A stretch of 47,923 bases of DNA, taken from Gemmatimonadota bacterium. GTDB taxonomy: Bacteria; Gemmatimonadota; Gemmatimonadetes; Gemmatimonadales; Gemmatimonadaceae. The stretch's first letter is position 1. Each line of letters opens with the position of its first letter. Position numbers and translations under genes: made by a program. Below the pieces are notes generated by a model. It made no database searches. It was not told the origin of the DNA and was given only the letters and a program-made list of their open reading frames with translations. The stretch covers positions 1 through 47,923 of the forward strand of contig JAQBPV010000485.1 of assembly GCA_028287345.1 (NCBI GenBank), in the 5' to 3' direction. Below are positions 128-47,923 of this stretch, piece by piece.

Positions 128-795
128 AGCACTTCGGCGCGAATCCCAAGAAGGTGTTCTTGGTCGATCGCTTTGCGGGCGAACCAGACATGCGGCCAGA
201 GGAATTCCGCGCGCATGTGGAAGCCGTATCGCCCCTGCTGGTCATCATCGACAGCTTGAGCGCCTATTCACGCGGTCAGGTACAGGACGACAACAACGCG
301 TCGCAGATGACGAAGGTTGTCCAGCCACTGACTGACGTAGTGCACCAGATGGGCTGCGCGCTCATCATCATTCACCACGCGACCAAATCCACCGGCCGCG
401 CGCGTGGGTCCACTGCCATTACCGCAGGCGTGGACGTGGTGTGCGAGTTCGACATCCCAGCCGAGGACACCGACCCCACGTTGCGGCGTATCCGCTCCGT
501 GGGCCGTGTCCCGATCCCCCGCGTCTACGATATCCGATTCGATGGCGACACCTACGCACTTGCCGTTGAAGGCGAGGGCGAGGCCCCAATCGACGAACGG
601 ATTATCGCCGTGGTGACCGATCGGCCCAACATCTCGGCGAACGATGTCTGTGATGCCGTCACCGCCCGACGCTCCGATGTCCTGAGCCGGATTACTGCCA
701 TGCTGGCGACCGGCCGACTTCGCAACGTTGGAAAGTACGCTCGGAACCCCAAGCTGGTTGTCCCGGGTCATCCCCTGTCGTTGATGGGCGCATGA
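1..795 (+). CDS. Primase-helicase, C-terminal part (continues from 46813 across the circular join)
   Basis: This is the RecA-like ATPase/helicase half of a bifunctional replication protein; the gene begins at the GTG at 46813 and totals about 592 residues. The Walker A (REKAGKST) sits just before the join. This part shows a Walker B strand (LLVIID, near residue 412) and then HHATK and RGSTAI motifs, typical of RepA/AAA_25-type hexameric helicases. A short C-terminal helical region follows. It probably unwinds DNA at the phage origin and, with its own primase domain, starts lagging-strand synthesis for the host polymerase. The stop overlaps the next ATG (ATGA). GGAACC repeats lie directly downstream. 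The family assignment is firm; whether the primase is active is inferred. Confidence 0.93.
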   Translation, partial: TLTGFLTAAVTNGTDFLGEFCAKGDVLVIGLEEFIGDTARRLKHFGANPKKVFLVDRFAGEPDMRPEEFRAHVEAVSPLLVIIDSLSAYSRGQVQDDNNASQMTKVVQPLTDVVHQMGCALIIIHHATKSTGRARGSTAITAGVDVVCEFDIPAEDTDPTLRRIRSVGRVPIPRVYDIRFDGDTYALAVEGEGEAPIDERIIAVVTDRPNISANDVCDAVTARRSDVLSRITAMLATGRLRNVGKYARNPKLVVPGHPLSLMGA

Positions 796-1088
796 GACCG
801 ACCTCTAAGTTCCCGACCCGCTCTAATGCGGCCGGAACCAAGGCGGAACCGCGCCGGAACCACCGGGGAACCACTCATGGGCTACCGGTTCCGGCTATGG
901 GTGGCCCCTTTAGGGGCCCCCAGCCAGCCGAGCCGATCGGAACCGCCACGTCAATTCCCTACGGCATGACCGCCGACGAATTGCTGGATTGCTGCGGCCC
1001 GTCGTGGAGAGGGATGACCCCCGATCACCGCGCCACGTATCCCCGCATGCGTCACGTCGTCGCCATTCGCGCCACGAGGGCTGCATGA
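792..1088 (+). CDS. Hypothetical 98-residue ORF overlying the iteron region
   Basis: This ORF starts at an ATGA overlap with the primase-helicase stop and ends at an ATGA overlap with the next gene, so it is placed like a translated gene. The N-terminal half is low-complexity and basic and lies over GGAACC repeats spaced 11 bases apart, a period that breaks codon phase. The C-terminal half (from the ATG at 966) looks more protein-like, with an MTADELLDCCGP motif. I do not recognise it. The first half may be a non-coding replication or regulatory region that happens to stay open in GC-rich DNA. Confidence 0.4.
   Translation: MRPTSKFPTRSNAAGTKAEPRRNHRGTTHGLPVPAMGGPFRGPQPAEPIGTATSIPYGMTADELLDCCGPSWRGMTPDHRATYPRMRHVVAIRATRAA
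834..944. repeat. GGAACC iteron array, candidate replication origin or protein-binding region
   Basis: GGAACC occurs at 834-839, 845-850, 856-861 and 867-872, each start exactly 11 bases after the last, about one helical turn. An inverted copy (GGTTCC) is at 887-892 and another direct copy at 939-944; a further copy at 743-748 lies inside the helicase gene. A perfect hairpin, GGCCCC-TTTA-GGGGCC, sits between them at 903-918. Tandem phased repeats beside a primase-helicase gene are typical of phage origins, where an initiator binds the same DNA face. That function is inferred; binding sites for another dimeric regulator are possible. Confidence 0.6.
903..918. other. Perfect 6-bp stem, 4-base loop hairpin within the iteron region
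   Basis: GGCCCC and GGGGCC are separated by TTTA. The stem is all G-C. No T-run follows, so this is not a standard intrinsic terminator. Its place among the GGAACC repeats suggests an origin structural element. Confidence 0.5.
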
Positions 1089-2106: not shown

Positions 2107-2316
2107 TCAGTCGCGGACGTAAGTCAGCAGGTCGCCGGGCTTGCATTTGAGGACGCGGCAGAGCGTGGCGAGGGTGTCGCCGTCAATGCGGGTGGCGTCG
2201 GGCTCGCGCATGAGTTTGTACAGCGTTTGTCGGGAGATGCCCGTCGCGGCGCTGAGCGAGTAGCCCGTGTGCCCCTGCTTCTCTGCGACCTCTCGCAGCC
2301 TCCAGCGTATCGGCAT
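2107..2316 (-). CDS. XRE/Cro-CI family repressor, 69 residues
   Basis: A compact single-domain helix-turn-helix protein. The recognition region at about residues 16-38 includes GYSLSAATGISRQTLYKLM, and the rest (LATLCRVLKCKPGDLL) is typical of the short XRE/HTH_26 type. It lacks a protease or dimerisation tail. It reads away from a divergent promoter region with two GTAAG-N7-CTTAC dyads, one directly in front of its own start, so it probably represses itself and the rightward promoter. The predicted leftward transcript begins at or within a base or two of its ATG, giving a leaderless mRNA. Which lysogeny decision it controls is inferred. Confidence 0.88.
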   Translation of the reverse strand: MPIRWRLREVAEKQGHTGYSLSAATGISRQTLYKLMREPDATRIDGDTLATLCRVLKCKPGDLLTYVRD

Positions 2317-6528: not shown

Positions 6529-6827
6529 CACAAGCAAAAGCAGAATCAGGGGGAGACCAAGAACAATCAACAGCAAGCACCACCGACGTGGGGGAGAGTT
6601 CGCAGTGGCTCGCCCGCGACCCGTGGCTACTTGGTTACTCTCGCCACGGGCAAACGCTCCACGCTCACTATCCGACGCGCGATGCGAGCGGTGCCACATC
6701 CTACGGCGCTGGCCTCGCATTCGACCACGCGCCCGAGATGCGCCGCTCACCTGACAGCGCGCGGTCAGCGCTGTGGCGAGACATGCTTGCGGTCCACTCG
6801 GTTTCCGCAGCGGGATGTGCCGCATGA
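6525..6827 (+). CDS. Hypothetical protein, 100 residues
   Basis: The ATG has GGAGGGA about 7 bases upstream and overlaps the previous stop. The first 30 residues are low-complexity and polar (Ser/Thr/Gln/Glu); the rest contains WLARDPWLLGY and a histidine-rich segment. No family recognised. Its stop overlaps the sigma-factor ATG, so the two may be co-translated. Confidence 0.5.
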   Translation: MTQAKAESGGDQEQSTASTTDVGESSQWLARDPWLLGYSRHGQTLHAHYPTRDASGATSYGAGLAFDHAPEMRRSPDSARSALWRDMLAVHSVSAAGCAA

Positions 6828-7747
6828 CAGAAGACAAAGTGGCAACGCTGATTGCTGCGGCATCAGATCGCATCCGGGCACAAGCGCGCCGGGGCGTAAA
6901 AGACGCCGCACGGGCCGATGACATTACTCAAGAAGCGTTGCTACGACTGTGGCGCAGTGCCGATAAAATCGACAGCCCGGAGATGTTCGCAGGGTGGGCG
7001 CATGTCATCACCGCGAACCTCATCAAAAACGAGTACAGACGACAGAAGAGCTCTAGTCATATTGTGCTATTCCAGTCGTTTCGAGAGGCAGGTGATACTG
7101 AGCGCGAGCCCGATTACGAGGACGAGGCGGCAGACGTAGAGAAAAGTTTCCTTGACGAGGAGCGTCGTGCAATTCTCCGGGCAAAGATCAAAAGACTCCC
7201 GTACAATTTCCGGCGCGTACTTGAACTCGTCACATTCGATCAACTCAACTACGAAGAAGCCAGCGCAGTCCTTGGGTGTGGTGTTGGCACGGTAAAGTCA
7301 CGCATCCATCGAGCAAGGCAGGCGCTTCTTGAAGTAGAGCCGGTAAGGCTCTACTCAAGGTCACAGCGAACTATTGTAATTCCGACAGCATACCGTGTCG
7401 TGCTGCGACCGACGATTTCCACGGCACCGATCTATGATCGCGTTGCTCGCCAGATTGCTTGGCGCGCCAAGCGCGCGTCAAAGTGGACTCGCTATTTGCT
7501 GGCCTTAAGGGAAAATGGCAGCATAGCAGTAGAGCGCCATATCGGTGTGGCCTTGAGGCGAGAAGTGCAGCACTCAAAGCTGACGATGGCGTGGGACTGG
7601 TCCGCGCAACATGACGGCCAGCTCACGACAATCGTTCGTGGCCCAAAAATCTATCCTGATTACGGAACACTCGCAGAGATGGCAGCGAAACGCATTGAAG
7701 CACTTCACGTGCCCGGCGCGCGAGAGCGCAGCGCGGAGGTCGCATGA
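6824..7747 (+). CDS. ECF-type sigma-70 family factor with long C-terminal extension
   Basis: A 307-residue protein. Sigma region 2 is clear at about residues 25-75 (ADDITQEALLRLWR, then FAGWAHVITANLIKNEYRR). Region 4 is at about 124-165 (LPYNFRRVLELV, then YEEASAVLGCGVGTVKSRIHRARQAL). Regions 1.1 and 3 are absent, as in ECF factors. About 140 extra residues follow, rich in basic and aromatic residues, with no recognised domain. It should bind host core polymerase and direct it to particular phage or host promoters. Base composition is visibly less GC-rich than its neighbours, which suggests recent acquisition. The start at 6824 is chosen for its ATGA overlap; ATG at 6815 is possible. Confidence 0.88.
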   Translation: MTEDKVATLIAAASDRIRAQARRGVKDAARADDITQEALLRLWRSADKIDSPEMFAGWAHVITANLIKNEYRRQKSSSHIVLFQSFREAGDTEREPDYEDEAADVEKSFLDEERRAILRAKIKRLPYNFRRVLELVTFDQLNYEEASAVLGCGVGTVKSRIHRARQALLEVEPVRLYSRSQRTIVIPTAYRVVLRPTISTAPIYDRVARQIAWRAKRASKWTRYLLALRENGSIAVERHIGVALRREVQHSKLTMAWDWSAQHDGQLTTIVRGPKIYPDYGTLAEMAAKRIEALHVPGARERSAEVA

Positions 7748-12634: not shown

Positions 12635-14091
12635 ACCCGAAAGCGCTTGCGGCCTTCCAATTACGGCTTGCGGAGTGGCGGCGTTCGCCGTCCATGATGG
12701 CGCAGCAGGAGTTCGGGTTCACTCCGGATCGCTGGCAGCATCAGGCGTTCGAGGCGTTCGCGAATCCGACCAAGCGCGTCGAGCGGATCAGCCTTCAGGC
12801 CTGCGTCGGACCGGGCAAGACGGCGGGTGAAGTGCTCATGGCGCTCAATTTCATCGGGTGCTACTGCTCGCCGGGTGAGCATCCGTCTGCCTTGGCCATC
12901 TCGGAATCGGCGGACAACCTCAAGGACAACTTCTGGAAGGAGCTCGCCAAGTGGCGCGACCGCTCGGCCTTCTTTACCGAAGCGTTCGACCTGACGAATA
13001 CACGGCTGTTCGCCCGCGAGCATCAAAAGACGTGGTTCCTGTCCGCGCGGTCGTTCTCCAAGAGCGCCGACGTCGAAGCGCAGGGGCGTTCGCTGTCCGG
13101 CCTGCATTCCAAGTACATCGCCTACTTCATCGACGAGTCGGGCGATATCCCGCCTGCAGTGCTGCGGTCTGCTGAACAGGGGCTCTCCAACTGCACCTTC
13201 GGCCGGATGGTGCAAGGTGGCAACCCAACGTCACACGACGGGATGCTGTTCTACGCGGCCACGAGCCAGCCGCATTTGTGGACGATCATCCGCATCACTG
13301 GAGATCCGGACGACCCGAACCGCTCGCCGCGAGTGGACATCGAGTGGGCGCGTGAGCAGATCGCCGCATGGGGACGAGACAACGCGTGGGTCAAAGCCTC
13401 GATCCTCGGCGTTTTCCCTGACCAGTCCATCAACGCGCTCCTCGGCCCTGACGACGTCGCCAAGGCCATGAAGCGCCACCTGACGATTGACCAGTACGAG
13501 TACGCGCAAAAGCGCCTCGGCATCGACGTCGCGCGGTTCGGTGACGACTCCACGGTCATCTTCCCGCGCCAAGGGCTCGCCGCTCGCAATCCGGTCATCA
13601 TGCGCGACGCGCGGTCTGAGGACATCGCCGGCCGCGTCATGATGGCCAAGCAGAAGTGGGGCTCCGAGTTCGAGATGATCGACGATACGGGCGGCTGGGG
13701 CGCTGGGACGATCGACGCATGCCGTCTCGGCGGTGTCCACCTGCTGGCCATCAACGCGGGCGGGAAGGCGGACGACCCTCGGATGTTCAACCGCCGCGCC
13801 GAAATGGCCTTCCGGCTGGCGGAATGGGTCAAGGGTGGCGGTGCGTTGCCGAACAACCCGCAGTTGGCTCGTGAGCTGGTCGCGGATCGCTTCTGGTTCG
13901 AGAAGGGCCAATTCCGCGTGCTGGAGAAAGCGCAGGTCAAGATTGCCCTGAACGGCAAATCGCCTGACTTGGCCGACGCGCTCAAGCTCACCTTCGCCCT
14001 GGTGGACATGCCGAGCGCGGCGACGGCGGCACTCGGGATCATGGGCGACGACACGCACCACGCCAAGACGGAATGGGATCCGTACGCGTGA
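12631..14091 (+). CDS. terL: Terminase large subunit
   Basis: A 486-residue packaging motor and nuclease. The ATPase shows a Walker A (CVGPGKT, about residue 58-64) and Walker B (AYFIDES, about 165-171). The C-terminal nuclease has GIDVARFGDD (about 298-307), DDTGGWG and NGKSPDLADAL, the expected acidic residues. It cuts concatemeric DNA and pumps it into the prohead through the portal. GTG start at 12631 overlaps the upstream bridging ORF. The length and domain order are normal for the family. Confidence 0.95.
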   Translation: MNPKALAAFQLRLAEWRRSPSMMAQQEFGFTPDRWQHQAFEAFANPTKRVERISLQACVGPGKTAGEVLMALNFIGCYCSPGEHPSALAISESADNLKDNFWKELAKWRDRSAFFTEAFDLTNTRLFAREHQKTWFLSARSFSKSADVEAQGRSLSGLHSKYIAYFIDESGDIPPAVLRSAEQGLSNCTFGRMVQGGNPTSHDGMLFYAATSQPHLWTIIRITGDPDDPNRSPRVDIEWAREQIAAWGRDNAWVKASILGVFPDQSINALLGPDDVAKAMKRHLTIDQYEYAQKRLGIDVARFGDDSTVIFPRQGLAARNPVIMRDARSEDIAGRVMMAKQKWGSEFEMIDDTGGWGAGTIDACRLGGVHLLAINAGGKADDPRMFNRRAEMAFRLAEWVKGGGALPNNPQLARELVADRFWFEKGQFRVLEKAQVKIALNGKSPDLADALKLTFALVDMPSAATAALGIMGDDTHHAKTEWDPYA

Positions 14092-24244: not shown

Positions 24245-26544
24245 TGGGCAATGTCTCGCAACACAGCTTCTCATCGGGTGAGGTCAGCCCGGCGTTGTAC
24301 GCGCGGACGGATCTCGGGAAGTACTCCACTGGCCTTCGCACCTGCCGCAACTTCATCGTGCGGAAACAGGGCGGACTTGATAACCGGCCCGGGACTGGGT
24401 ACGCCGGGCCGACGAGTGCGAGTGTGCGGATGTTGCCGTTCGTGTTCAACGACGCGCAGACCTGCCTTCTCGTCTTTACGAACCTGTCTGTTGCATTCGT
24501 GCGCAACGGGGCGTTCATCGCCTATTCACTCGCGACGCCGTACCTCGCGGCGGACCTATCCGCATTGCAGATCACACAGTCGGCGGACGTTGTCACCATC
24601 GTCCATCCGAGCTATCCGCCAGCCACGCTGTCGCGGTTCTCGGATACGAATTGGGTCTACGCGGCGATCTCGTTCGCGCCAAGCATCGCTGCGCCGGCCG
24701 GGTTCGCCCTCACCCCTGCGGCGAGCGGTGGGGTGTTCCATCGCTGGGTAGTGACGTCGCTCGGCTCCAACGGTGCGGAGAGCTACCCGACTGCCGTCCT
24801 TGGTGTCACGAGTGTCGAGGTCCCCCAGGCGCGGACCCTGTCGTGGACGCCGGTCGCTGGTGCGGTGGGCTACAACATCTACGCCGCCTACTACGGCAAC
24901 AGCTTCGGGCTGGTCGGAACTGCGGTTGATCCGTCGTTCTATGACGGAGGACTGACGCCGGATCTTTTCAACCAACCGCCAGCGGCTCGCTCACTGTTCG
25001 ATGCGGCGGGCGAATATCCGAGCGCGGCGAACTACTACCAAGGGCGTCAGTTGTTCGGCGGCCCGAACCTGCTCCCCGGTACGATCTACACGTCGCGCTC
25101 AGCCGATTACCAGAACTTCACGGTCTCCGTGCCGACGCAGGACGACGACGCGATTACGTTCGGCCTCGTCTCCAAGAAGGTCCAGCAGGTGCGGCATATC
25201 GTCGATGCGTCCTCGCTCCTCGTCCTGACGTCGGGCGGTGAATGGATCATCGGTGGCGATAGCTCGGGTGTGTTGCGTCCGACCGACATCAACGCGCTCC
25301 AGTTCTCGCAGCATGGGTCAAGCTTGCTCCCGCCTATCCTGATCGATCATCGGGTGATCTACGTGCAGGCGCGGCAGACCATTGTCCGCGACATCGCGCG
25401 GAACCCGAACACGGGCTACTCCGGCAATGACCTCACGATCATCTCGGGGCATCTGTTCGAGGGGCACACGATTGTCGACTGGTGCTATCAGGAATCCGCG
25501 TCGGTCATCTGGTGCGTCCGTGACGATGGTGTCCTCCTCGGCCTCACCACGGTCGACGAGCAGAACATCCTTGCATGGCACCGCCACGACACGCTGGGCA
25601 CGGTCGTCGGCATCTGCTGCATCCCCGAAGGCTCCGAGGATCGCGTCTATCTGGCCGTGACGCGGAACGGGGCGACGGGGATCGAGCGGATGCATTCGCG
25701 CTTCTTCACCGACATCGAAGACGCGGTGTTCCTCGACTCCAGCCTGACGTATGACGGGCGGAATACGGGAAGCACCACGATGACGCTCTCGGGTGGGACG
25801 GACTGGACGTTCGACGAGCTCCTGACCTGCACAGCGTCGGCGTCAACGTTCACTGCAGGCGATGTCGGGAACGCAGTGTTCTTGGACTTTCCGGACGGGA
25901 CGCAGATCCGCTTTGCGATCGCAGGCTACACGAGCGGGTCTATCGTGACCGGCTTTCCGCAGATGACGGTCCCGGCCGCTGACCGTGGCATTGCAACGAC
26001 GGACTGGGCGCGCGCGGTCGACGTCGTGTCGGGTCTGGACCATCTCGAGGGGCTGAGTCTCGGTGTATTCGCAGACGGCTACGTCGTCGCCTCGCCGAAC
26101 AACCCGCAGGTCACCACGGAATGCATCGTCTCGGGCGGCTCGATCACGCTGGACCGGCCGCATGCCTACATCCACGCCGGATTGCCGTTCGTGTCGGATA
26201 TGGGCCTGCTCGACCTGGATACGCCCGAAGGCCAGTCGATGCGCGACAAGACGCTCCTCATCAACCGCGTCACGCTCGAGGTCAACGCGACGCGCGGTGT
26301 GTTCGCGGGTGGGAGTGAACCCGCCGACGATGGCACCTCGGGCCTCTTCGAGTTGAAGCTCAGGGACACCGAGGACTACAGCACGCCCGTGTCGCAGGTG
26401 GTCGGGGCGATCAAGCAGGCGGTGCAGAACAATTGGGACCAGCGGATCAACGGTCGCGTATTCGTGCGGCAGGTCGATCCGGTGCCGCTCACGATTCTCG
26501 CGGTGATCCCGTCCGGCAATATCCCTCCCGCGGCCACGAGGTAG
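24244..26544 (+). CDS. Tail tubular protein B (T7 gp12-like nozzle)
   Basis: A 766-residue protein. The N-terminal block HSFSSGEVSPALYARTDLGKYSTGLRTCRNFIVRKQGGLDNRPGTGY is diagnostic for the podovirus nozzle family. Long strand-rich regions follow, and the C-terminal LTILAVIPSGNI is also typical. It makes the tip of the short tail and carries the fibres. Length is normal. It establishes podovirus morphology for this phage. Confidence 0.94.
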   Translation: MGNVSQHSFSSGEVSPALYARTDLGKYSTGLRTCRNFIVRKQGGLDNRPGTGYAGPTSASVRMLPFVFNDAQTCLLVFTNLSVAFVRNGAFIAYSLATPYLAADLSALQITQSADVVTIVHPSYPPATLSRFSDTNWVYAAISFAPSIAAPAGFALTPAASGGVFHRWVVTSLGSNGAESYPTAVLGVTSVEVPQARTLSWTPVAGAVGYNIYAAYYGNSFGLVGTAVDPSFYDGGLTPDLFNQPPAARSLFDAAGEYPSAANYYQGRQLFGGPNLLPGTIYTSRSADYQNFTVSVPTQDDDAITFGLVSKKVQQVRHIVDASSLLVLTSGGEWIIGGDSSGVLRPTDINALQFSQHGSSLLPPILIDHRVIYVQARQTIVRDIARNPNTGYSGNDLTIISGHLFEGHTIVDWCYQESASVIWCVRDDGVLLGLTTVDEQNILAWHRHDTLGTVVGICCIPEGSEDRVYLAVTRNGATGIERMHSRFFTDIEDAVFLDSSLTYDGRNTGSTTMTLSGGTDWTFDELLTCTASASTFTAGDVGNAVFLDFPDGTQIRFAIAGYTSGSIVTGFPQMTVPAADRGIATTDWARAVDVVSGLDHLEGLSLGVFADGYVVASPNNPQVTTECIVSGGSITLDRPHAYIHAGLPFVSDMGLLDLDTPEGQSMRDKTLLINRVTLEVNATRGVFAGGSEPADDGTSGLFELKLRDTEDYSTPVSQVVGAIKQAVQNNWDQRINGRVFVRQVDPVPLTILAVIPSGNIPPAATR

Positions 26545-26547
26545 GAC

Positions 26548-27066
26548 ATGGGTGTCACAGCGGGGATTCTCCAAGCAGCGCAGACGACCACGACCTTCCT
26601 CGGCCAGCGGCAGGAAGCGTCGGCGCTGCGCGACTCAGCCGCGTTCGATACGGCGCAGGGCAACTACTTGGCCGGCGAAGCGACGTCGCGCGGCGAGTTC
26701 GACGCGTCTCGTCGTGCGGTGGCTGGTCGTCAAATGGTCGGTGCGCAACGAGCTGCCGCCGCCGCTTCAGGCATCGACGCGAATAGCGGGAGTGCCGCAT
26801 CGATTCAGGCGGACGAGGCGGGGCTGTCTGCCTTCGATGAGCAGATGATCCGCAACAACGCGGCGCGTGAAGCGTGGGGGTTCAAGGCGCAATCCACGCT
26901 GAATGCCGCTGCTAACGAGAACGAGGCTCGAGCAAAAGTCCGCGATAGCTACTCGACGTTGCTCACTGGCGCGGGGAAGACGTACAACATGTTCGGGGGC
27001 AATTCCAGCAAGTCGAGCACAAAGCAGGTTCCGGCCGATGGCTTCCAAGACGCGAGCCGCCGCTGA
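26548..27066 (+). CDS. Internal virion protein (T7 gp14-like)
   Basis: A 172-residue, Ala/Gln-rich helical protein. The pattern QRQEASALRDSAAFDTAQGNYLAGEA, then VGAQRAAAAASGIDANSGSA, is that of gp14-like core proteins, which are ejected into the outer membrane at infection. It is the first of three to four consecutive ejection-protein candidates. Confidence 0.8.
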   Translation: MGVTAGILQAAQTTTTFLGQRQEASALRDSAAFDTAQGNYLAGEATSRGEFDASRRAVAGRQMVGAQRAAAAASGIDANSGSAASIQADEAGLSAFDEQMIRNNAAREAWGFKAQSTLNAAANENEARAKVRDSYSTLLTGAGKTYNMFGGNSSKSSTKQVPADGFQDASRR

Positions 27067-40921: not shown

Positions 40922-41523
40922 CGGACGCCATCGAAGAGACCGAGTTCGCCGTTGAGCTCGCGCCAGACATGGAGCGCGTCGGCGTCACGGTCGGCAACGA
41001 AGCGACCGCCTCACTCGCGGAGCAGCAGGCCGCGCTCACGTTGGTCATGCGCCGGATGAAGGCGATCCAGAAGGGGTTGGACGTGCAGGACGACGCCCAT
41101 GTCCTCGAGGTCCGCGCTCTGACCGACATGCACCACCAGCAGACGGCGAGCGAGCGGGCGCGGTTGGAGGCGTTCAAGCGGTACGCGCTCAATCTCGCCG
41201 AGTTGATGGAGTGGGGGAAGAAGAAGTCGCACGACTCCCCCTACGGCTCGGCCGGCGTGCGCGACTCGGGTGCCAGCGTGGAATGCACCGACCGGCATTC
41301 GTTGGCGATGTGGGCGGCTGAACATGCACCACAGTTCGCGGAATACGAGATGACCGTCCCCGTCTTGTCGGCGCTGGAGCGGTTTAGTCGGACCGAACTG
41401 TCCGAGATGGGCGAACTGGACGTGAAGTGGAACGAGATCAAGAAAACGCTGGACCCTTCGGGCGAGCTCCCCCCTGGCGTTTCGATGACGCCCGCCGCCC
41501 GCACGCCATTCGTGAAGGTCTGA
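40918..41523 (+). CDS. Gam-like host-nuclease inhibitor
   Basis: A 201-residue protein of Mu Gam size and plan: two long helices making an antiparallel coiled coil (about residues 30-95, ALTLVMRRMKAIQKGLDVQDDAHVLEVRALTDMHHQQTASERARLEA), then a strand-rich end with SHDSPYGSAGVRDSG and a helix. Gam binds DNA ends and blocks RecBCD-type nucleases. The Erf gene directly downstream, as in other recombination cassettes, supports this. Sequence match is moderate. Confidence 0.6.
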   Translation: MTDAIEETEFAVELAPDMERVGVTVGNEATASLAEQQAALTLVMRRMKAIQKGLDVQDDAHVLEVRALTDMHHQQTASERARLEAFKRYALNLAELMEWGKKKSHDSPYGSAGVRDSGASVECTDRHSLAMWAAEHAPQFAEYEMTVPVLSALERFSRTELSEMGELDVKWNEIKKTLDPSGELPPGVSMTPAARTPFVKV

Positions 41524-41525
41524 CC

Positions 41526-42269
41526 ATGAAGCAGTCTGAATCAATCGCGTCCCTCTGCGCCGCGCTCGTCAAGGTCCACCAGACCCTTGAGCCGATCATA
41601 AAGGACGCGAACAACCCGCATTTCAAGAAGGCATACGCGTCGCTCGACGCCATCATGGAGTACGTCCGCGCTCCGCTGGCAGGCGAAGGTCTCGCAATCG
41701 TGCAGGGCGGTGGTGCACCGATCTCCAACGTAGAGGGCATCGTTGTCGGTGTCGCAGTTGAAACGATGCTGGTGCATACGAGCGGCGAGTACATGTCCAG
41801 CGCTATCACGCTCCCGCTGGACCGTCCAAGCCCGCAAGCGGTGGGCTCTGCGATTACCTACGGTCGCCGCTACGGAGTGTCCGCGCTGTTGGCGCTGACG
41901 ACCGAAGAGGACGACGACGGGAACGTTGCCACGGCATCGTCGCTCAACGCCCCTGCACTACGCACCGCGGCAACCGCGGCGCTCCAGACGAACGCTGCGA
42001 AGGAACCCGCTAACGCTGTCGCTCGCTCCGCGCCTGCGACGAACGGCGTGAACGATCCGTCTTGCCCAATCTGCGCTGGCCCGATGTGGGACGATCGTCT
42101 CGGCAAGAAGAACCCGAGCGCGCCCGACTTCAAGTGCAAGAACAAGCCGAAGGTGAAGGGTGGTCCCGGTTGCGAGGGGGTGATTTGGCCGCCGAAGGTG
42201 GGCATTCCGCAGACCGCCCCGTCCGAATTCGATGACGGCTGGCGGCCTGACGACGAACCGCCGTTCTGA
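41526..42269 (+). CDS. erf: Erf-family single-strand annealing protein
   Basis: A 247-residue protein. The N-terminal 150 residues carry the Erf/Sak signature: LVKVHQTLEPIIKDANNPHFKKAYASLDAIMEYVRAPLAGEGLAIVQ, then LPLDRPSPQAVGSAITYGRRYGVSALLAL. A zinc-ribbon-like part follows (CPICAGPM..., CKNK, GCEG), and the end is acidic and aromatic (DDGWRPDDEPPF), like an SSB-interaction tail. It pairs complementary single strands for phage recombination and genome circularisation. ATG at 41526. Confidence 0.9.
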   Translation: MKQSESIASLCAALVKVHQTLEPIIKDANNPHFKKAYASLDAIMEYVRAPLAGEGLAIVQGGGAPISNVEGIVVGVAVETMLVHTSGEYMSSAITLPLDRPSPQAVGSAITYGRRYGVSALLALTTEEDDDGNVATASSLNAPALRTAATAALQTNAAKEPANAVARSAPATNGVNDPSCPICAGPMWDDRLGKKNPSAPDFKCKNKPKVKGGPGCEGVIWPPKVGIPQTAPSEFDDGWRPDDEPPF

Positions 42270-43076: not shown

Positions 43077-43258
43077 TGGCCGACACGACGCGACAGCTCA
43101 TCACGCCCGCCAGAGCAGCGGAGATCTTCGGCGTGCACCGCGAGACCATCTATCTCTGGATCAAGGATGGACGGCTCCCCGCGGTGAAGCTGTCGCGTCG
43201 CATGACCCGTATCCGGATGGCGGACGTTGACGCCCTGATCGAGCGGAGCGCCGCGTAA
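43076..43258 (+). CDS. Excisionase-type (MerR/HTH_17) DNA-binding protein
   Basis: A 60-residue protein with the complete excisionase-family winged HTH: LITPARAAEIFGVHRETIYLWIKDGRLPAVKLSRRMTRIRMADVDALI. Its TAA shares a base with the integrase ATG, so the two are co-translated. It likely sets the direction of integration/excision. It could also regulate the integrase. Confidence 0.83.
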   Translation: MADTTRQLITPARAAEIFGVHRETIYLWIKDGRLPAVKLSRRMTRIRMADVDALIERSAA

Positions 43259-44529
43259 TGCCCCGTGCTGCGAAGTGGGGCCGGAACGGAACATCGGAGA
43301 CGCCCAAGCCCATCGACCTTCGGTTCGGCAAGGTTCGGCTCCAGATCTCGTCCGGCGTGTACACGAAGGACGCATGGACGCTGCGCCGCAATGCCATTCG
43401 GGAGTCATGGGCGTTGGGCGGTCTGTGGCGCGACGCGGTGATGGCGCTGATCGCAAAGCGGTTCACCCTCGCCGCGTTCTACGAGGCGCGGCAACAGGGC
43501 GAACCAGCGGTCAGGACACTCATGGCCACATCCGGCTCCGAGCCGTTGAAGGACCTGATCCGCGACTACGTGAAGCAGTCGAAGGCGAAGGACATCCGAC
43601 ACACCACCCAGAAGCTCCAGCGGTACAGCGCCGCGTTGGGCAAGTCGCCGTCCGTGGCCGACGTGACGACCGCGAGCGTGGAAGCGTTCCTGGCTGCGCT
43701 GACGGACATCCGGACGCACCCACGAACGCGCAAGCGACCGTACAAGGGGTGGGTGCCGAGCACGCCCGTTCCGGCCAAAGGCTCCACGATCAACCGCTAC
43801 CGCGCGGCGATCGGTGGGCTCTGCACGTGGGCCGTCAAGAAAGGGCGCATGACGGAGCATCCCATCGCCGGGAAGAAAGTGGAGAAGTACGCCGAGCCGC
43901 ACCACCGCCTGCCGGAAATGTCGGCGGACGAGTACCGAGAGTACATGGCGACCGCCAGAGCGAAGCGGCCGGACGTGGCGGTGGTGTTGCTCCTCCTCAT
44001 TCACACGGGCTGCGACATGGGCGAACTCATGGCCGAGACGCCCCCGGTTCTCGTCGTCCGTGACGTGGACTTCGCGCGGGGGCGGATCCGCTACGACCGC
44101 CCCAAGACGATACGGTGGGGCTCCCTGCCCCGCTATGTCCCGATGCCGGCCGTTGTTGTGGAGGCGATGCGCGCACACGTCGCGGAGTACGGCGTCAAAG
44201 GCGAGCAGGCCGCGTTCGGGATGTTCCAGCGGTCAGAGGCCGAATGGCTGCACAGGCAGGCCGCACAAGCGATCCAGCGCCCAAAGCTGACCATCAAGGA
44301 CCTGCGCCACGTCGCGGCCATCTCGTGGGTCAAGGCGGGCGTTCACATCCGGCTGGTCATGAAGTGGCTCGGCCATAGAAGCCTGAGCCAGACGATGCGG
44401 TACACCGACTACGAGCCGGACGACGCAGTCGGAGCCGAGATGGCCGAACGGGCCGCGCTGACGCTCACCAAGCATTTGAACACTGGCTCTATCCCTAACG
44501 CAATTCCCGGCGCGGAGAAAACCGCATGA
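43258..44529 (+). CDS. int: Tyrosine recombinase (phage integrase)
   Basis: A 423-residue protein with an N-terminal arm domain, a SAM-like core-binding domain (about 85-175: PLKDLIRDYVKQSKAKD) and a C-terminal catalytic domain. Box II is present: KDLRHVAA (second Arg; Lys replaces the usual first His), WLGHRS and nucleophile Tyr in TMRYTDY. Box I reads TGCDMGEL, with Asp where the first catalytic Arg (TGLRxxEL) belongs. It should integrate the phage at the tRNA-Leu site found 33 bases downstream. If Asp is real, the enzyme is either atypical or impaired. Confidence 0.93.
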   Translation: MPRAAKWGRNGTSETPKPIDLRFGKVRLQISSGVYTKDAWTLRRNAIRESWALGGLWRDAVMALIAKRFTLAAFYEARQQGEPAVRTLMATSGSEPLKDLIRDYVKQSKAKDIRHTTQKLQRYSAALGKSPSVADVTTASVEAFLAALTDIRTHPRTRKRPYKGWVPSTPVPAKGSTINRYRAAIGGLCTWAVKKGRMTEHPIAGKKVEKYAEPHHRLPEMSADEYREYMATARAKRPDVAVVLLLLIHTGCDMGELMAETPPVLVVRDVDFARGRIRYDRPKTIRWGSLPRYVPMPAVVVEAMRAHVAEYGVKGEQAAFGMFQRSEAEWLHRQAAQAIQRPKLTIKDLRHVAAISWVKAGVHIRLVMKWLGHRSLSQTMRYTDYEPDDAVGAEMAERAALTLTKHLNTGSIPNAIPGAEKTA

Positions 44530-46718: not shown

Positions 46719-46816
46719 GACGCGCCTACGACGAGGTAGAGTACTCGCGTTCGCGCCCCCGACCGGACGAGGGAACGGCGGCACAGAAGTACGCGTCGCG
46801 GTTGGACGCGGCGTGA
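46715..46816 (+). CDS. 33-codon ORF bridging to the primase-helicase
   Basis: Begins at ATGA and ends at the GTGA of the primase-helicase start. The basic peptide (RRAYDEVEYSRSRPRPDEG) has no known relatives. It may couple translation. Confidence 0.4.
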   Translation: MRRAYDEVEYSRSRPRPDEGTAAQKYASRLDAA

Positions 46817-47923
46817 CGGCCATTTCACTACCGACCGAGAAACCAGTGGATCGCGTCCTCGCGAAGCTTGCGCGTGTGAAACCGAACGGCTCCCGCCAGT
46901 GGATGGCGCGCTGTCCGGCGCACGAGGACGACACTGCGTCCCTGTCCATCAAGGAGGGCACGGACGGGCGTGTGCTGCTCAACTGTCACGCGATGTGCCA
47001 GACGGCGGCGGTCGTTGCGGCGATTTCGTTATCCATGTCCGACCTGTACGCGCAATCCAGCGTAAAGCCCGACACGAGCACCACCGTCACACCGGTTGAG
47101 CGTCCGGCGCTCGTCAAGACATACGACTATGTGAACGCGGAAGGCGTGCTGCAATTCCAGGCATGTCGCTTCCGGAAGTCGGACGGCAAGAAGGAATTTC
47201 GCCAGCGTCGCCCCGATGGAAAAGGCGGGTGGATCTGGAACCTCACCGATGTTGAACCGGTGCTGTATCGCCTGCCGGAAACGCTCGCCGCGATCGAAAG
47301 CGGCAAGACGATCTACATCGTGGAAGGCGAGAAGGATGCCGACGCGTTAAGCATGGAAGGCTACTCGGCCACGACCTGCCCAATGGGCGCGGGCAAGTGG
47401 CGCGAGACGTTCAGCGCGGCGCTCAAGGGCGCGTCCGTTGTGATCTTCCCCGACAACGACGAGCCGGGTCAGAGCCACGCGGAACAAGTCGCGGCGAGCC
47501 TTACCGCGGCCGACTGCGCGGTCAAGGTCGTGATGCTGCCCAACTTGCCGCCCAAGGGTGACGTCTCCGACTGGCTGGACTCGCCGGATTGCGACGTGGA
47601 CGTAATGGAGGAGCTGGTTCGCAACACGCCGCGGTGGACTGGCGACGAGCTCCAAGCACGTCACCGCACGCGATGGCGGTTAGACGAGTTGATGGAAAAT
47701 GAGTCCATCATGCGCCCCCCCCCGCCGATCGTTCCGCGGTTAGCGTGGGCTGGTCGGTCCACGTTGCTCGCCGCGAGAGAGAAGGCGGGCAAGTCCACCT
47801 TAACCGGATTCCTCACCGCCGCGGTCACCAACGGCACGGACTTCCTCGGCGAGTTCTGCGCCAAGGGCGACGTGCTGGTGATCGGACTCGAGGAATTCAT
47901 CGGCGACACCGCGCGTCGCCTCA
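46813..47923 (+). CDS. Primase-helicase, N-terminal part (continues at position 1)
   Basis: GTG start in a GTGA overlap. Residues 34-62 form a CHC2-like zinc site (CPAHED, then NCHAMC: Cys34, His37, Cys58, Cys62). A linker and strand region precede the TOPRIM domain: IYIVEGEKDADAL (Glu171) and IFPDNDEPG (Asp214, Asp216), the metal-binding residues that make primers. The Walker A (REKAGKST, about 322-329) begins the helicase and straddles the join to position 1. The order zinc, TOPRIM, RecA-like is that of T7 gp4 and P4-type primase-helicases. There is no stop before the window end. Confidence 0.95.
   Translation, partial: MTAISLPTEKPVDRVLAKLARVKPNGSRQWMARCPAHEDDTASLSIKEGTDGRVLLNCHAMCQTAAVVAAISLSMSDLYAQSSVKPDTSTTVTPVERPALVKTYDYVNAEGVLQFQACRFRKSDGKKEFRQRRPDGKGGWIWNLTDVEPVLYRLPETLAAIESGKTIYIVEGEKDADALSMEGYSATTCPMGAGKWRETFSAALKGASVVIFPDNDEPGQSHAEQVAASLTAADCAVKVVMLPNLPPKGDVSDWLDSPDCDVDVMEELVRNTPRWTGDELQARHRTRWRLDELMENESIMRPPPPIVPRLAWAGRSTLLAAREKAGKSTLTGFLTAAVTNGTDFLGEFCAKGDVLVIGLEEFIGDTARRL
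47797..47923. repeat. Terminal direct repeat, right copy
   Basis: Identical to positions 1-127. See the left copy. It makes the window circular when the two are merged. Confidence 0.97.

Follow-up and report, generated by a model that had tools for sequence, protein, structure and literature searches.

Positions 834-945 of the analysed window, i.e. the whole contig of 47,923 nucleotides, can be read as an iteron-type replication origin of a phage. We infer that this origin is bound, and replication initiated, by the primase-helicase encoded just before it, through a winged helix of the helicase itself, and we give this reading a probability of about 0.74. The pattern across the helicase family is a more interesting result than the single array.

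The window is one contig of a 6.08-Mb MAG. Its bases 1-127 are identical to bases 47797-47923; the assembly is therefore circular, with a phage genome of 47,796 bp that was cut inside the primase-helicase gene. This phage is probably temperate. The genes and sequence elements discussed below are collected in Table 1. Joined over the assembly cut (46813-47923 plus 128-795), the primase-helicase has 592 aa, with a TOPRIM and an AAA_25 domain, and its helicase family profile matches RSF1010 RepA (1g8y, E=2e-9) and RadA (E=1e-10). Elsewhere in the genome, a tRNA-Arg (TCT) is predicted at 26525-26615 (- strand), overlapping the end of a long ORF. A Cro/C1-type HTH gene is located at 2107-2316 (- strand); GCGCTTAC / GTAAGCG repeats lie just before its start, at about 2325-2385, and are possibly its operator. 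Position 2325 is among the AT-richer spots of the phage genome.

Table 1. Features of the phage genome considered in this analysis (window coordinates).
Feature	Position	Strand	Remark
Primase-helicase gene, 3' part: remaining RecA-fold helicase and C-terminal winged helix	1..795	+	AAA_25 E=1.6e-15
Winged helix at the helicase C-terminus, proposed to read the iterons	589..759	+	predicted structure
Mechanical ORF (98 aa) spanning the array, with an ATGA overlap on either side	792..1088	+	no family match
GGAACC iterons, four copies exactly 11 bp apart (834, 845, 856, 867)	834..872	+	
Palindrome made up of inverted iteron, G/C hairpin and direct iteron	886..945	.	both iterons can pair as outer stem
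Inverted iteron (GGTTCC on the + strand)	887..892	-	forms perfect inverted repeats of 9 nt with 831-839 and 853-861
GGCCCCTTTAGGGGCC hairpin, GGCCCC-TTTA-GGGGCC	903..918	.	
Direct iteron	939..944	+	closes the palindrome
Sigma factor, regions 2 and 4	6773-7747		
ERF single-strand annealing protein	41427-42269		
Tyrosine integrase	43258-44529		
Primase-helicase gene, 5' part: zinc/TOPRIM primase region and start of AAA_25 helicase	46813..47923	+	continues at 128-795 across the circular join

The initial annotation of this DNA had described the four evenly spaced GGAACC starts, an inverted copy at 887 and the GC hairpin, and all of these were recovered exactly in the sequence. A further copy, which it had placed at 939, is indeed present there, in direct and not inverted orientation. 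The first iteron begins 39 nt past the primase-helicase stop, and one extra GGAACC of the + strand is found at 743, within the helicase gene. The palindromic element has a predicted DNA fold of -18.3 kcal/mol (z -2.2). Taken alone, its hairpin is statistically ordinary in a genome of 64% GC; the hairpins of two related loci, L050 and L014, are strong. The hairpin core CCCCTTTAGGGG is found again in another related locus, L071, and in reversed form in L050. No Rfam match was found. The hairpin was also considered as a rho-independent terminator and this was rejected: it has no T-run, and 0 terminators were found at 600-1200.

The search by DNA pattern alone brought up the closest relatives, L050 and L071; a protein scan with the C-terminal part of the helicase alone (the first ORF of the window) returned no viral relatives. 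Their primase-helicases are 58% (L050) and 56% (L071) identical to that of the window, in both cases over 581 aa. Behind the stop of the L050 gene there are four GGAACC exactly 11 bp apart (at +15, +26, +37 and +48) plus CAGCCCCCTAAAGGGGCTG. The L071 gene is directly followed by a run of three copies with 11-bp spacing, one inverted copy, CACACCCCTTTAGGGGTGTG and additional direct copies. These two loci otherwise matched little of the window, and the array therefore travels with the helicase. Conservation in relatives had been set as a test by the initial annotation. Array, 11-bp spacing and place beside the helicase are all kept, and its proposal that these are the iterons of an origin next to a replicative helicase is supported by relatives that have the helicase.

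The family was then delimited with a profile (A2) made of the helicase plus its C-terminal part. At E<=1e-8, A2 members are present in 87 of the 394 genomes of the class, many of them being general RadA/DnaB-like proteins. The protein search gave 13 members with a score over 200. A significant repeat cluster (p<=0.01) is seen at the gene end in 8 of these, and 2 more are borderline; the control, other ORF ends in the same loci, gave 3 of 162. In the wider family (score over 60) the proportion is 10/26, against 5/22 for the other helicases of the same set; these helicases without a recognised winged helix make a mixed contrast set, and the comparison is not taken as proof. The gene end of L016, a close member of the family, is free of repeat clusters. 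The repeats lie within the last helicase codons in L010, L015, L300 and L322. In G040, also of this family, a GGAACC array of 9 direct and 3 inverted copies with a CCCCACGTAGTGGGG hairpin is located upstream of the operon and not behind the helicase.

The repeated word differs between members. The family cores are TGTCCC (L009, L010), GGGCAA (L006), AGTGCGC (L014), CGGGACG (L015), AGTACC (L300), GGTTCC (L299) and GGAACC (window, L012, L322), and more distant members have GTCACG (L008), ACTCCA (L307) and TGTACG (L312). Family spacings are mostly one or two helical turns: in the loci picked by protein only, 64 spacings do not exceed 27 bp, of which 28 measure 11 or 12 bp and 18 measure 21-25 bp. 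On the tree, GGAACC users are scattered, and the two TGTCCC loci are the sister group of a GGTTCC user; the word therefore changes, and the arrangement is retained. The TGTCCC pair (L009/L010) is also suggestive of a co-variation of iteron word and recognition helix, too thin a case to be claimed. The priming module varies as well: the window has TOPRIM, L009 and L010 have a DnaB N-domain, and L014 has a domain of NrS-1 type. Despite these swaps, helicase, winged helix and array stay together. Among isolated phages, Rhizobium phage RHph_Y3_1 (L393, MN988490.1) contains GTTCCCA repeats and hairpins in a 306-nt gap (12934-13239 of the record) directly behind its primase/helicase gene. Arthrobacter phages Tank and MellowYellow have no repeat cluster behind the helicase, and have a separate HTH gene just before it.

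The correspondence between arrays and genes was also examined in the reverse direction, arrays first and genes second. The DNA pattern GGAACCN5GGAACCN5GGAACC is present in at least 120 viral contigs, and the following counts cover the 120 listed. The A2 helicase is encoded in 17 of them, and in 16 of these 17 the array is close to the end of the helicase gene, from 375 nt ahead of it to 115 nt past it. Three of these loci (L048, L077, L153) look nearly identical, so that there are fewer independent cases. The ORFs next to the 120 listed arrays include 21 DnaD-like helicase loaders, 17 AAA_25 proteins, 6 Prim-Pol and several replication initiators. With 21 of 97 neighbouring ORFs being DnaD-like, unrelated replication modules appear to share both word and spacing. 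As a null, 77 ORFs taken at random places in the same contigs show terminases, integrases and head, tail or structural genes, and the 25 families listed for these random ORFs include one DnaB and two helicases at most. The control word CCAAGG at the same 11-bp spacing was found in 49 contigs, against at least 120 for GGAACC, with only 1 A2 helicase. The neighbours of the CCAAGG arrays (L342-L390) are also largely replication genes; CCAAGG is therefore a second positive and not a null, which is why random positions were taken as the null. One-turn arrays in phages mark replication modules in general, and the CCAAGG control suggests that a word-free search for such arrays could map phage origins generally.

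Two other observations were made with the GGAACC pattern. In many viral contigs (L047, L059, L103, L067, L113 and others) the array lies inside an ORF of about 240-300 aa. Three GGAACC words with 11-bp spacing are also found in related bacteria, at apparently chromosomal, intergenic places: G116:C1:457052 (L290), G116:C3:332470 (L291), G027:C19:77649 (L289) and G342:C56:9565 (L288). No related primase-helicase was found in the 19-20 kb fetched around each of them. Direct repeats at 11 bp are known for response regulators such as PhoB, which the chromosomal triplets recall.

The candidate for the reading of the repeats is the C-terminus of the helicase. AlphaFold models of it show a compact winged helix; in the model of 84 residues, helices are predicted at 17-27, 33-39 and 44-57, together with a wing, and the core has a pLDDT of about 94. 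According to structural matches this predicted winged helix resembles DNA-binding domains of the MarR/BlaI type. The P4 origin-binding domain is not among the structural matches listed, which is uninformative either way. The separate HTH gene of the array-less Arthrobacter phages fits a winged helix that reads the repeats, being compatible with it and no proof.

We propose the following mechanism. The helicase would bind 834-945 through its own C-terminal winged helix, with one protomer per 11-bp repeat, so that adjacent protomers would be lined up head to tail along one side of the DNA. The RecA-fold helicase would thereby be gathered at the palindrome and hairpin. Opening of the DNA would take place at the hairpin or close to it, where the first primer might be laid by the TOPRIM primase fused to the helicase. 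Three elements of this scheme we infer, namely the place where replication starts, the winged helix as reader and the hairpin as site of opening and priming. Two properties of iteron origins are found directly in the sequence: direct repeats at helical-turn spacing, and repeats adjacent to or within the presumed initiator gene, the latter likewise in L050, L071 and most relatives. An AT-rich unwinding element is usual in iteron plasmids. None is seen here, the AT-richest 50-mer within 500-1400 having 46% AT for a genome mean of 36%, and since this element, which need not be universal, is missing, the claim is limited to a region that works like an iteron origin. The change of GC skew that the initial annotation expected at the array did not appear: detrended skew turns at 3.8 and 25.6 kb. 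In a phage this is only weak evidence, and skew was uninformative as an origin marker.

A regulatory role of the array, alone or in addition to an origin, remains the main rival. The array would then be an operator, at which the winged helix or another phage regulator controls early genes, with replication starting elsewhere. The structural matches of the winged helix are mostly transcription repressors, the G040 array is in a divergent region between early operon and integrase, which is a typical regulatory place, and the chromosomal 11-bp triplets of G116, G027 and G342 are near genes unlinked to replication. All of this is in keeping with an operator. However, most relatives have the array behind the helicase gene or in its last codons rather than ahead of a promoter, the stretch 600-1200 gave no sigma-70-like promoter, and the neighbours of the viral arrays are replication genes of unrelated kinds. 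An operator with replication starting elsewhere is for these reasons rather unlikely.

Much less probable is a role in partition or incompatibility, the array serving a plasmid-like phage as a centromere-like site bound by a winged-helix protein. Direct repeats are usual in partition sites, and the structural matches include AspA (5k5q), a winged-helix protein that binds centromeres. The phage carries an integrase, however, the gene linked to the array is a primase-helicase, and no ParA-like gene was seen among the proteins scanned in a non-exhaustive scan.

The usual -35 core of ECF promoters is GGAAC, and the phage encodes a sigma factor with regions 2 and 4; the initial annotation had accordingly mentioned, as a second and weaker explanation, that the repeats are -35 elements of promoters for this factor. 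We reject this explanation and regard it as highly improbable. No -10 element is found 16-17 bp behind GGAAC; 16 bp behind copies 1 and 2 there is another GGAACC instead. GGAAC-N15-18-CGTC occurs 5 times against 3.7 expected, i.e. at chance level, and never in the array, and the relatives carry quite different words at the same place.

A functionless repeat, arising by chance or from coding, has hardly any probability left, even if the long ORF with its ATGA overlaps spans the array. GGAACC as such is ordinary in the window (25 found, 23.6 expected), whereas GGAACCN5GGAACC is found 3 times against 0.01 expected, and the GGAACC array is the top-scoring tandem array of the window. Four equal 6-mers at a constant period of 7-40 gave 0 arrays in 400 Markov-simulated genomes, and when the codons of the overlapping ORF were shuffled 20,000 times, no such array arose either. 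This ORF is probably not coding in its array half. Codon-position GC over 792-965 is flat (0.60/0.69/0.69, against about 0.62/0.50/0.82 in real genes), the ORF belongs to no family, and L050 and L071 keep the array but neither the ORF nor its frame. The array is therefore best read as non-coding, in agreement with the earlier remark that protein coding does not explain the 11-base period.

Returning to the origin reading, we see about an even chance that it extends to a widespread and undescribed class of self-contained phage initiators. These would be RecA-fold helicases of the RepA/RadA type with an origin-reading winged helix of their own, recruiting themselves to iterons at the 3' end of their own gene without separate initiator or loader; the priming module would be exchangeable and the word would drift or switch, place and spacing being kept. 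If the class is real, each gene would carry its own origin through phage recombination, since place and helical spacing are kept while the word drifts. No description of this pattern was found in the open-access literature. The origins of most phages are unmapped. If the reading is true, one-turn repeats together with a G/C hairpin, looked for where an AAA_25 primase-helicase gene ends, would give a testable origin for many of them. The family would likewise supply naturally matched winged helices and iteron words for studies of how initiator and origin change together, and the "origin behind own helicase" scheme of SaPI, SCCmec and pRN1 would be extended to RecA-fold helicases.

The proposed scheme has precedents from experiments, among several known systems that resemble it in part. 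In phage SPP1, oriL is made of direct repeats inside the initiator gene (PMC6316719). As in SPP1 and lambda, where phage iterons lie within the initiator gene, several relatives here have repeats in the last helicase codons; SPP1 and lambda differ in using separate origin-binding initiators that pass on to a DnaB-type helicase, and SPP1 also has AT-rich unwinding elements, which are not seen at the phage array. In plasmid pRN1 the origin is 3' of the replication gene, and its ORF904 is a primase-helicase with a C-terminal winged helix (PMC4234260). It has a 100-nt stem-loop and no iterons, and combines an archaeo-eukaryotic primase with an SF3 helicase.

The alpha protein of P4 unites a TOPRIM-type primase, a helicase and a repeat-binding winged helix, according to PMC4234260, which cites Ziegelin & Lanka 1995 and Yeo et al. 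2002. The single chain with primase, helicase and winged helix is thus common to both systems, and P4 has ori/crr iterons. The helicase of P4 alpha belongs to SF3. Alpha has no AAA_25 domain, and the P4 iteron word is a different one. The RSF1010 oriV is served by RepC, RepA and RepB', and contains iterons and small hairpins (ssiA/ssiB) where the primase starts (PMC4234260). RSF1010 RepA is the nearest solved plasmid helicase to that of the phage, which is of this hexameric RepA type, and a hairpin beside iterons, a candidate primase start, is present in the window, L050, L071 and others. RSF1010 employs three separate proteins, whereas helicase, primase and presumed iteron reader of the phage are one chain.

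A parallel in arrangement is offered by SaPI Rep and SCCmec Cch2, which bind iterons directly downstream of their own gene via a C-terminal domain, with inverted repeats or hairpins beside the direct repeats (PMC7581432). Their helicases are 3'-to-5' AAA+ initiator helicases; that of the window falls outside the SaPI Rep / Cch class, being a RecA-fold AAA_25 protein, like RSF1010 RepA and RadA, that is joined to a priming module. Origins located behind the gene of their initiator helicase are known as a scheme, and what would be new here is the RecA-fold helicase of the RepA/RadA type.
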